DNA of 64,000 bases from Pseudogracilibacillus sp. Lineage in GTDB: Bacteria; Bacillota; Bacilli; Bacillales; Amphibacillaceae. The position numbers and the translations under genes are program-made. The notes under the pieces were generated by a model. It ran no database searches. It had not been told where the DNA came from and saw only the letters and a program-made list of their open reading frames with translations. Of this stretch, positions 2,522 through 63,242 are shown piece after piece (position 1 is the first letter of the stretch; each line of letters begins with the position of its first letter). The stretch is from assembly GCA_026169815.1 (NCBI GenBank), contig JAPFDT010000001.1, forward strand, positions 1 to 64,000. Reading direction: 5' to 3'.

Positions 2522-4372
2522 TTATTGTAATAACGTTGCTGATGATTCATGTTCCACTGGTTTACCAGTTTTTTCATGTATATATTCGACTAACTCCACA
2601 CAAATGTCATAACGCATAAATGGTGTAATTAAATAAATACCATTAAAATGTTCTAACGCTGTATCAATTAATTCTTTTGAAATAGCAATACTTTCTGCCG
2701 TCGACTTTTCTCTATCGGCACCAGCTGCCTTCATCCGCTCACGGACTTCATCGGTCAACTTAATTCCTGGCACTTCATTGTGTAAAAATTCCGCATTACG
2801 TGTTGACGTTAAGGGCATAATACCAACAAAAATCGGTACATCAATTTGTGCTGTTGCTTTCTTTAGTTCAACAATTTTTTCCTTACTATAGATTGGTTGT
2901 GTTAAAATATAATCTGCACCACTTGCAATCTTTCTTTCTAAACGTTGTACAGCTCGCCCGACGTTCGCAACATTCGGGTTAAACGCAGCAGCAACATTGA
3001 AGTTCGTTCGTGCTCGTAATGACTTTCCAGAAAACGACAGTCCCTCATTTCCTTTTTTCATTAGTTCAATTAATTTAAATGAATTGACATCAAAAACGGA
3101 TGTCGCACCAGGGAAGTCACCAATTTTCGTCGGATCACCCGTTATCGCTAAAATTTCATTCAAACCAAGTGTGTGCAGTCCCATTAAATGTGCTTGTAAA
3201 CCAATTAAATTTCGGTCACGGCATGTTAAATGTACTAATGGTTTAATGCCGAGATTTTGTAAAATCGTTGCGACTGCGACGTTACTTACACGTGGTGTAG
3301 CTAATGAATTATCCGCTAACGTAATCGCATCAACACCTGCTTCATGTAGCGCTTTTGCTCCTTCAACATATTCTGTCATATCTAAATGTTTCGGTGCATC
3401 AAGCTCAACGATAATCGTATGACGTTCTTTCGCTAATTCCGCTAACGTTTTTCCAGCTGGAGCAGCTTCTGGAATAATCTCAATTGGTTCAGGTAATGTT
3501 ACTTCTTTCTCTGCTATTGGCGTTAAACCTTTTACGCCTTCTGCTAAAGCTCTTACGTGTTCAGGTGTCGTACCGCAACATCCACCGAGGAGACGCACGC
3601 CTTGATCGCGGAGATCTTTTGCCGTCGTTTTAAAATAATCTGGTTCATTCTCGTAAAATAGTACGCCATCTCGATAAGCTGGTAAACTCGCATTCGGGTA
3701 AGCTGCTAAATATGCTTTATCGAGTAGTGGCACAGTTTCAAGTGATGTCACCATTTGCGCTGGACCAAACCGACAGTTCACTCCAACAACATCTGCTCCT
3801 AAGTTTTCCAGTTGTTTTAATGCATTTGGTAATGTAATCCCACCTTCTAACACACCAGGTTCATGCATGGACACGTTCGTAATGATTGGTAAATCCGTTT
3901 CTTCTCGAGCAATTTCTAGTACTGTCGTTAATTCTTCTAAATCATAATATGTTTCTAAAATTAACCCGTTGACTCCTTCAAGCAATAAGCAATACAACTG
4001 CTCTCTGAAACTACGTTTAATTTCATCAAGTTCAGTATAGTTTTGCCCTCCGTGAATGCCACCAATATTTCCTAATACATATGCATTGCCGAGACTCGCC
4101 TTTTTCGCAATACGCACTGCTGCTTGATTAATCTTTTTCACTTCTTCTTCTAAACCATAACGTGCTAGTTTAATATAATTAGCTCCATACGTATTCGTCT
4201 GTATAATATTCGCTCCTGCATGAATGTATGCTTCATGAACATGCTGTACTTGTTCTGGATGGGTAATATTTAACTCATCAAAACTTCGATCAACCCCGTG
4301 TGAATATAAAATTGTTCCCATCGCTCCATCGCCGATTAAAATTTTCTCATCTAAATCGGTTAATAGACTCAT
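2522..4372 (-). CDS. yitJ: Bifunctional homocysteine S-methyltransferase / 5,10-methylenetetrahydrofolate reductase (YitJ-like)
   Basis: 616 aa; N-terminal Hcy-methyltransferase domain ([27 protein letters not shown]) and C-terminal MTHFR domain. Confidence 0.93.
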
Positions 4373-5496
4373 CCGTGTTTCACCTCCAATGTCGCAATAT
4401 GCGCTAACGCTTGTTCTAAGTCTTCGATAATATCATCTTCATGCTCAATCCCAACTGACGCTCGTAATAATCGATTAGATAATCCGTAAGATAAACGCAC
4501 TTCTTCAGGAATGTCCATATGCGTCTGTGTTACTGGATAGGTGAGGAAACTTTCCACTCCACCTAAACTTTCTGCAAACGTAAATAACTTTAACTGTTGT
4601 AAAAATGGTTCAACGAGCGCTTCTTCTGTTATTTCAAAACTTACCATCCCGCTTCGTCCTGGATAGTAGACGTCTGTTACGAGTGGATGTTGCTCTAAAT
4701 ACTCAACAACCTTTTTAGCGTTTGTTTCATGTTGCCTCATCCGTAGTGCCAATGTTTTCATCCCACGAATTAAGCTCCAACAATCGTAAGGACTCAAGAC
4801 AGCTCCAGCAGAATTTTGTAAAAAGGCTAATTCTTCTGTGATTGCCTCTCCTTTAGATATAACGAGTCCTGCTAACACATCATTGTGACCTGCTAAATAT
4901 TTCGTCGCACTATGGATGACAATATCAGCACCTATTTCTAAAGGCTTTTGTACATATGGTGTAAATAACGTGTTATCGACAATGTGTAAAATGTTATGAG
5001 CTTTTGTTATTTCACTCACTTTTTCTAAATCTGTCGTTTGCATTAACGGATTTGTCGGTGTCTCGATAAAAATTGCTTGCGTATCTTCTTCAATTAATTC
5101 CGCTAACTCCTCATATGATTTTCCATCCCAATAAGAAAATCTGAATCCATATTTTTCTTCATACACTTCAAACAATCTAAAGTTTCCACCGTAAATATCT
5201 CGTGAAGCGATGAAATGAGCCCCTTTTTCAAATAAGCTGAAAACAAGTTGCACTGCCGCCATCCCAGATGATGTCGCAAAAGCTCCATCGCCACCTTCTA
5301 ACTCAGCAACCGCCTCTTCTAACACATCACGTGTTGGATTCGCCGAACGCGTATAATCATAACCATCTTGCAGTCCGATATGTTCGTGACGAAAAGCTGT
5401 TGAAAAATATATTGGCGTACTTACCGCCCGGTGATGCTCATCACGACGATTTCCAATTTGTACGAGAAATGTATCTTGCTTACATCGATCAGTCAT
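4369..5496 (-). CDS. metI: PLP-dependent cystathionine gamma-synthase / O-acylhomoserine (thiol)-lyase, MetI-like
   Basis: 375 aa Cys/Met metabolism PLP enzyme ([40 protein letters not shown]); 4-nt overlap with the next gene. Confidence 0.9.
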
Positions 5497-5624
5497 GAAC
5501 TAATTTCCCCTTTCTAACTCCCTCAAAATATTTATTCCGTTATCATAGGAATATTCCTATTTTATAACTGATTGTATTTTCTAAAATTTCAATTTATTTT
5601 ATGTGAAGTAAACAGTTCATTTGT

Positions 5625-5750
5625 TTACTTATTAGTAGAATCAATTAACGTAATTTTTCCATCTGTTACGGTAATGACAACAGACCCATTAACAATTGCA
5701 TCGATATGTGCTTTCACCGTATCTAACGTACAGTCTGTAACATCACTCAT
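5625..5750 (-). CDS. Small DUF2292/YezD-like protein, 41 aa (not in supplied ORF track)
   Basis: Minus-strand translation MSDVTDCTLDTVKAHIDAIVNGSVVITVTDGKITLIDSTNK, purine-rich RBS (AAAGGAAAGATGAGAAG) upstream; lies between SAM riboswitch terminator and metI. Confidence 0.75.
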   Translation of the reverse strand: MSDVTDCTLDTVKAHIDAIVNGSVVITVTDGKITLIDSTNK

Positions 5751-5822
5751 CTTCTCATCTTTCCTTTCATCAACATTTTATACTTAAGTAGCACTAGCCA
5801 GCTATGTCAGATTTTTTCAATT

Positions 5823-5855
5823 AAAAAACCTCTTCTCACATAGTAAGAAGAGGTT
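5823..5855 (-). terminator. Terminator of SAM-I riboswitch expression platform
   Basis: AACCTCTTCT...AGAAGAGGTT hairpin followed on the minus strand by a T-run. Confidence 0.88.
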
Positions 5856-5870
5856 GGACGTTCGTATTCG

Positions 5871-5977
5871 CTCTTCTTATCTATCAGGCATTACGCTTGC
5901 TGGAATTGGCACAGTACTTCATAAGTCTGTTGCCGAGGCTTCAAAGGGCCAGTCCCTCCACCTCTCTGGATAAGAAT
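5871..5977 (-). promoter_or_regulatory. SAM-I (S-box) riboswitch aptamer
   Basis: Minus strand: TTCTTATCCAGAGAGGTGGAGGGACTGGCCCTTTGAAGCCTCGGCAACAG...TGCCAATTCCAGCAAG...TGATAGATAAGAAG, the S-box consensus elements. Confidence 0.96.
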
Positions 5978-6171
5978 TAATTTGTTATTGAATTGTAGAT
6001 ATAACTATACTGCTACCTTAATTAATTGTCAACCGTTATTATTATTTTCTGAAAAAATAAACATTCTGAATGTGACGTAAACGTTGTTGTAGCATGTGAT
6101 TGAGGGATTGGAAAAATTTAGTTAAAATTTGAATGAAGGAATGGGATGGAATGGAGCGAATCTTCCTTCCA

Positions 6172-6470
6172 TTGCGCGGATTTGTCGCTTTCTCGCGCGG
6201 TTTCACATCGCCTCGCGCGGATATGCCGCTTTCTCGCTCGGTTTCACATCACCTCGCGCGGATTTGTCGCTTTCTCGCGCGGTTTCACATCGCCTCGCGC
6301 GGATTTGCCACTCTCTCGCGCGGTTTAACATCACCTCGCGCGGATTTGTAGCTTTCTCGCTCGGTTTCACATCGCCTCGCGCGGATTTGTCGCTTTCTCG
6401 CGCGGTTTCACATCGCCTCGCGCGGATTTGCCACTTTCTCGCGCGGTTTAACATCGCCTCGCGCGATTTC
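6172..6470. repeat. Tandem repeat, about 41-bp unit (21+20 bp composite), about 7 copies
   Basis: Reiterated CGCGCGGATTTGTCGCTTTCT / CGCGCGGTTTCACATCGCCT with point variation. Confidence 0.95.
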
Positions 6471-59302: not shown

Positions 59303-59319
59303 GGATAATTAACCTTGCA

Positions 59320-59420
59320 TTTTCCGACTACTTCCCTCCGCTAGCATTAACTAGATCAGGTCCTTTAGGGTCGGAAAGAATAAACACCTTCCTCTCAGCC
59401 CGTCATAGGCACCCCTAGTA
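59320..59420 (-). promoter_or_regulatory. TPP riboswitch (THI element), upstream of thiW
   Basis: Minus strand ACTAGGGGTGCC...GGCTGAGAGGA...GACCCTAAAGGACCTGATCTAGTTAATGCTAGCGGAGGGAAGTAGTCGG. Confidence 0.96.
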
Positions 59421-59483
59421 GTACTTACTATTTTTTTATTGTTATAAAGTGTTACGTTTTTTCTATGAAATGTCATACAAATT

Positions 59484-60356: not shown

Positions 60357-60384
60357 AAGTTAAGTTCATACAATATACTTTCAA

Positions 60385-60484
60385 TATTCGACTACACTTC
60401 CCCACGCTAGTATTATCTAGATCGGGTTCAAAGGGTCAGAACTAACAACATGTTCTTCTCAGCCGCATAACAGCTCCCCTAGTG
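60385..60484 (-). promoter_or_regulatory. TPP riboswitch (THI element), upstream of tenA
   Basis: Minus strand ACTAGGGGAGCTG...GGCTGAGAAGA...CTGACCCTTTGAACCCGATCTAGATAATACTAGCGTGGGGAAGTGTAGTCG. Confidence 0.96.
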
Positions 60485-60693
60485 TTCTTTATTTTATTAA
60501 CTTTTCATCATTATCGTAGCATATAAAATAATATTGTAAAGAGTATTTTGTTAATAATCATTATTTTCAGTTTTATTTTTGCTATTAAATAAGGTTTTAC
60601 CTTACTTTTATCTAGTCTATATCCAATATCAAATTGTAACTATTTTTTATATACTCTTGACAAATTTTAAATCCTGTGATGAAATGCAATGTA

Positions 60694-63054: not shown

Positions 63055-63242
63055 GATTCGCTGCGGAATAACACTACGCTTTCCGCGGGCAACACCTCAA
63101 CTACCTCAGAAACAAAGCCCGTTTCTTCGGGGATTTTCGGTTGTTGCGTTCCGAAGTACACGATGTACTAGTGTCGACGTTGGTCACAGGACGTGACCGA
63201 TTTTAGTCGACCCGCAGGAGTCTTCGTGTTATTCCTTCGCTA
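63055..63242. repeat. Dispersed palindromic Bacillaceae-type repeat, copy 1
   Basis: Outer inverted repeats GGAATAACAC...GTGTTATTCC; inner CGCTTTCCGCGGG / CCCGCAGGAGTCTTCG; further internal palindromes. Confidence 0.75.

Follow-up and report, generated by a model that had tools for sequence, protein, structure and literature searches.

DUF2292/YezD/OscA proteins probably constitute a new family of minimal RNA-binding antiterminators, which, on comparative sequence grounds, would use a 21-nt RNA hairpin to govern a scattered sulfur-starvation regulon, each of the two protein subtypes recognizing its own type of loop; these proteins would often be made under a SAM riboswitch, giving a relay from riboswitch to protein to RNA. 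One gene of this family lay in the 64,000-nt stretch of Pseudogracilibacillus sp. DNA analyzed here (contig JAPFDT010000001.1, positions 1 to 64,000; the window). Taken by itself, the window gene is a modest and diverged representative of a family already known, and the notable result is the family-wide pairing of protein and RNA. The explanation as a whole, composed of a diverged DUF2292 gene in the window, a family of hairpin-binding antiterminators, and decay of the window copy after loss of its target, is favored to the same fairly likely degree.

The window operon was located on the reverse strand and displayed the following organization: a putative sigma-70-type promoter-like site TTGACA-N17-TATAGT (6004..6032; 11/12 matches in a consensus scan), a SAM-I (S-box) riboswitch aptamer (5874..5976; RF00162, 93.2 bits against a gathering score of 44.4, E 4.8e-21), the downstream intrinsic terminator of this riboswitch with a 13-bp stem plus T run (5827..5855), the purine-rich stretch AAAGGAAAG read from the sequence as a probable RBS (5759..5767), the 41-aa ORF (5625..5750), metI encoding a cystathionine gamma-synthase-like protein as operon gene 2 (4369..5496; 66–83% identity to full-length orthologs of the genus), and a gene named from sequence resemblance as yitJ-like, encoding a bifunctional homocysteine S-methyltransferase/methylenetetrahydrofolate reductase (2522..4372) and overlapping the end of metI. 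The 41-aa ORF is the first gene of this SAM-I-controlled metI–yitJ operon. A perfect 9-bp inverted repeat AAGTAAACA-N7-TGTTTACTT (5606..5630, reverse strand) was read across its stop codon, a place taken in related loci by the KRF codons, with the attenuator farther along; the repeat had no T run. Besides, a 41-bp GC-rich tandem repeat (GCGCGGATTTGTCGCTTTCTCGCGCGGTTTCACATCGCCTC; 7.2 copies) occupied 6174–6469, in the interval that separates the promoter of the metI operon from a permease gene, and two TPP riboswitches and one Bacillaceae-1 RNA were found at 60382–60490, 59316–59426, and 63155–63222.

The ORF started with ATG and encoded MSDVTDCTLDTVKAHIDAIVNGSVVITVTDGKITLIDSTNK. Its residues 8–40 matched PF10055 (DUF2292) with E 4e-5 and 23.5 bits against a gathering score of 22, a margin of 1.5 bits; this was the only Pfam match of the ORF and the sole DUF2292 match in the window genome, while the NCBIfam OscA model NF033785 did not match the window protein. 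The family residues YGS, TVHDG/VVQDG, Q, and EK.RF/L were replaced by NGS, TVTDG, L in place of Q, and a stop codon before KRF; in an alignment with 24 canonical members, the hydrophobic core was kept, and the near-invariant H29, Q35, E40, and K42-R43-F44 were lost. AlphaFold2 predicted a helix (residues 3–18) plus a beta-hairpin (residues 22–40) in both the window protein (pLDDT 79) and a canonical member (pLDDT 77). No significant PDB or viral match was given by a fold search of the DUF2292 models, nor any match by a PDB sequence search, so a lone helix plus beta-hairpin lends RNA binding no structural support. Sulfur genes, metI and the yitJ-like gene, followed downstream as elsewhere in the family. 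A DUF2292-family ORF was present between the SAM-I terminator and metI in five of the seven genomes of the genus, while in the other two (G002 and G006) metI directly followed the terminator; hence the gene is genuine, is no recent arrival, and can be dispensed with. The closest ortholog, in G004, shared 63% identity (26/41) with dN 0.31 and dS 1.34 (saturated), giving dN/dS of about 0.23. By its sequence, the window ORF is thus a genuine but diverged member of the DUF2292/YezD/OscA family. The initial annotation had described this ORF with its RBS-like stretch between terminator and metI, assigned it to DUF2292, and placed it under SAM control, all of which was borne out, and the high dN/dS named there as a sign of non-conservation was not seen.

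Of 61 relatives, 20 contained DUF2292, as did 159 of 401 Bacilli genomes. Nearly all loci inspected at close range were adjoined by sulfur genes (cysH, sat, cysC, metI, yitJ, metNP, ssu, and FMN reductase), and relatives with the order SAM/DUF2292/metI exist. A conservative motif scan detected a SAM-I core within 800 nt upstream of at least 51 of about 180 DUF2292 loci, and Rfam confirmed SAM-I at 10 of the 20 first-searched loci (the window included) plus L054 and L064. Canonical Bacilli relatives matched NF033785 with E down to 1e-9 and 20–38 bits, all those tested being below the cut-off of 85 bits. Canonical proteins tended to have basic C-terminal tails, and 174 of 179 were Cys-free from the beta-hairpin onward, which suits a protein made in sulfur starvation. 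Two subtypes were distinguished, His (TVHDG) and Gln (VVQDG), and some genomes harbored both. In Pseudomonas, OscA is described as needed for Cr(VI) resistance and as part of the sulfur starvation response (Viti 2009, as related in PMC2996968 and PMC3596284). In B. subtilis, yezD comes after a sulfate transporter gene (PMC7953295), was grouped with yitJ, yrrT, ytlI, and tcyN in the expression table of a ribosome-profiling study (PMC3862929), and gave no survival phenotype upon deletion in deep starvation (PMC6385201). The earlier statement that the family has no established function stands only in part, since OscA is a genetically studied sulfur-starvation protein (NF033785); the sulfur role suggested there is supported. 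YezD genes without sulfur neighbors were carried by Priestia plasmids (L195 and L197, 4001–4198), and CRISPR-DR2 repeats adjoined a locus of an Rrf2-like regulator, DUF2292, and a substrate-binding protein (L022, 2732–3094).

The hairpin was first seen as GCCGATTAGACAACTAAAGGCATCT followed by a terminator in the DUF2292–metI gap of canonical genus members, and it recurred adjoining DUF2292 genes across Bacilli; the conserved-block search worked with a single canonical protein as the start, while a mixed alignment did not. Its 21-nt consensus NNC-GA-YYRG-[AT]CNA-CYRR-A-GGN was composed of 3 bp, a GA/A asymmetric internal loop, and 4 bp closed by G-C around a loop of 4 nt ([AT]CNA) or 5 nt. An overlap with the 5' arm of a terminator was seen in 150 of 195 distinct copies, where shuffling gave an expectation of 3.1: the final GGC of the hairpin was shared with the start of this arm, making the two structures mutually exclusive. 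The minimum-energy fold was the terminator in 148 of these 150 (medians −21.5 kcal/mol for the terminator and −6.5 kcal/mol for the hairpin), and the hairpin would therefore need stabilizing. As far as sequence and folding go, it is built like an antiterminator whose formation depends on assistance. Some upstream copies had no terminator; among these, the copies in DUF2292's own 5' leader at L066, L068–L070, and L010 had none overlapping, which suggests a second, perhaps autoregulatory, use. In the leaders of relatives, covariation accompanied the terminator overlap: six of seven pairs changed on both sides in a 33-sequence alignment, a figure biased by selection because pairing was required, and when the search pattern ignored the stems, full pairing was seen in 41 of 52 distinct matches, and 89% of pairs were formed (shuffled sequences: mean 70%, maximum 75%); on the opposite strand, only one of ten was fully paired. 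Gathering and relaxed searches of Rfam 15 returned nothing credible at the hairpin, apparently an RNA family without a name and absent from Rfam. Two other identities were tried and rejected: (i) a leader peptide MCRLDN* inside the hairpin, ruled out because related elements alter the peptide and keep the pairing and (ii) the 'PyrR' labels placed near SAM riboswitches in a B. methanolicus transcriptome paper, which are probably unrelated, as T-boxes carry them too and Rfam 15 gave no PyrR at these loci.

Protein and hairpin were strongly associated across genomes. Among the 401 Bacilli genomes, 136 had both, 23 DUF2292 only, 3 the hairpin only, and 239 neither (Fisher p 7e-78, the genomes not being phylogenetically independent); collapsed to genera, the counts were about 58/12/3/70 in the same order (p 4e-24), and among the 61 relatives they were 17/3/1/40, the lone hairpin-only match falling within a PTS-like coding gene. 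At least 8 of the 23 DUF2292-only genomes (G046, G090, G145, G243, G286, G316, G403, and G410) were search misses with the hairpin beside the gene. The hairpin model was trained on copies adjoining DUF2292 genes, which biased adjacency counts and left genome-wide presence/absence unbiased. Hairpin copies unlinked to DUF2292 preceded genes for O-acetylhomoserine sulfhydrylase, NtaA/DmoA-type and SsuD-like monooxygenases, and sulfate-binding protein, together with metN, cysH, cysJ, and metE-like, ssu, and arylsulfotransferase-like genes; hairpins so far from DUF2292 imply either a factor that acts in trans or a shared ligand. Two tandem hairpins at L298 (G156:C4) preceded an enzyme gene (product beginning MLKDIYRNPVVLTDSYNPSHHRLKINGDWE) that was not obviously a sulfur gene. 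The loop type also followed the protein subtype: in cis, 25 of 28 copies next to Gln-type genes had 5-nt or A-rich loops and 95 of 97 next to His-type genes had [AT]CNA-like loops (p 8e-21), and for unlinked copies the numbers of 5-nt/A-rich and [AT]CNA-like loops were 5 and 2 with the Gln type and 2 and 39 with the His type (p 2e-4); like the co-occurrence figures, these are associations, not independent by descent. The hairpin was not found at the two alphaproteobacterial DUF2292 loci checked, and OscA there may therefore act otherwise.

Given the coupled presence and absence, the unlinked copies, and the match of subtype and loop, DUF2292 is the best candidate for the hairpin-binding factor, and from these patterns we infer direct binding. 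The protein would bind the 21-nt hairpin, binding would stop the terminator from forming, and the sulfur genes would be turned on; where a SAM riboswitch governs the DUF2292 gene, a low SAM level would increase the amount of protein and thereby relay the signal to unlinked sulfur genes. It is possible, although rather unlikely, that the hairpin is instead sensed by a small molecule, a tRNA, or another protein and that DUF2292 is a mere member of the sulfur regulon acting elsewhere, for instance in sulfate or sulfonate uptake, as could hold for OscA, given the sulfur and chromate phenotypes of its mutants, for which the accounts cited above give no mechanism. Some DUF2292 genes indeed had no adjoining hairpin, but a mere member should be absent from many hairpin-bearing genomes, and it was absent from 3 against 136; moreover, the loop type tracked the protein subtype for unlinked copies too, and 21 nt is small for an aptamer.

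With DUF2292 taken as the antiterminator, the window copy is probably a relic still carried in the metI operon. Neither the covariance model nor the exact pattern detected the 21-nt hairpin in the window genome, while matches were obtained in four members of the genus, and the window genome yielded neither cysH nor sat (ATP sulfurylase). The attenuator hairpin would thus be invisible in the window because it was lost there. The three weakest DUF2292 matches were those of G000, G064, and G347, and the hairpin was absent from all three genomes (p 0.003). In the course of events proposed here, the window lineage would have lost assimilatory sulfate reduction and all hairpin copies, and the protein would thereby have lost its target and its conserved surface residues, surviving either as a relic or in a modified role at metI. 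The disappearance of sulfate reduction is not by itself enough to account for the decay, because G005 was also without cysH and sat, yet kept a canonical protein plus the hairpin. Partial decay after loss of the RNA target is the simplest reading of these sequences, although the protein may have changed its role. That the ORF is an untranslated remnant, a pseudogene left open by chance survival, is doubtful: the loss of the conserved H, Q, and KRF, the narrow Pfam score, the hairpin-free genome, and the two genus members without the gene at this site are all in keeping with it, but the frame was open behind an RBS-like stretch, the hydrophobic core was kept, and the identity of 63% with a dN/dS near 0.23, below 1 relative to G004, argues against a plain pseudogene.

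The proposal of the initial annotation that the protein is a small regulator or a chaperone of the biosynthetic enzymes fared differently in its two halves: the regulator half gained from the pairing with an RNA attenuator hairpin, and no evidence for a chaperone role was found. DUF2292 proteins do share operons with metI, yitJ, cysH, and metN, but their neighbors include many unrelated enzymes and transporters, and the constant companion was the RNA hairpin, making it improbable that they serve methionine/cysteine enzymes as small chaperones or regulate them directly. Least plausible is a leader peptide or upstream ORF attenuating metI, suggested by a short ORF placed between terminator and metI, as the ORF matches a family of 45–65-aa proteins found outside SAM operons too, is free of Met/Cys codon runs, and has no terminator after it in the window. 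If the hairpin-binding antiterminator reading is true, an extra, SAM-riboswitch-linked regulatory layer would be added to sulfur control in Bacilli, and Rfam would gain an apparently missing family. OscA/YezD/DUF2292 proteins occur widely and have ties to both sulfur starvation and chromate resistance, and a short RNA partner overlapping a terminator makes their action assayable by binding and termination.

Compared to known systems, the window copy resembled DUF2292/YezD (PF10055) in its match above the gathering score, its helix plus beta-hairpin, and its sulfur-gene neighbors, but it lacked the H of TVHDG, the Q of ITQI, and the C-terminal KRF and ended at 41 aa. OscA (NF033785, Pseudomonas) belonged to the same superfamily, had a sulfur-starvation role, and had a model matched by canonical Bacilli relatives; the relatives tested nevertheless scored below 85 bits, and the window copy had no NCBIfam match. 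No paper linking DUF2292, YezD, or OscA with RNA was found in the open-access library searched. For bacilli, Naville and Gautheret (2010; PMC2965389) described an attenuator without a name in front of both a sulfonate transporter operon and an unknown gene; this attenuator may be the same element as the 21-nt hairpin, and in the part of that article considered here, no DUF2292 link was made and no family defined. SAM-I (S-box) control extended to the window operon and to no fewer than 51 DUF2292 loci, while the 21-nt hairpin was separate, lying downstream of or apart from the riboswitch. The BglG/LicT/SacY antiterminators recognize RAT hairpins, contain CAT and PRD domains, and serve a sugar regulon. 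DUF2292 differs from them in being a tiny protein without CAT or PRD, in its RNA sequence, and in a regulon of sulfur rather than sugar; by analogy, its proposed mode would resemble theirs in a weak hairpin laid over the 5' arm of a terminator and in a protein gene within its own operon, sometimes flanked by hairpin copies (L010 and L014).
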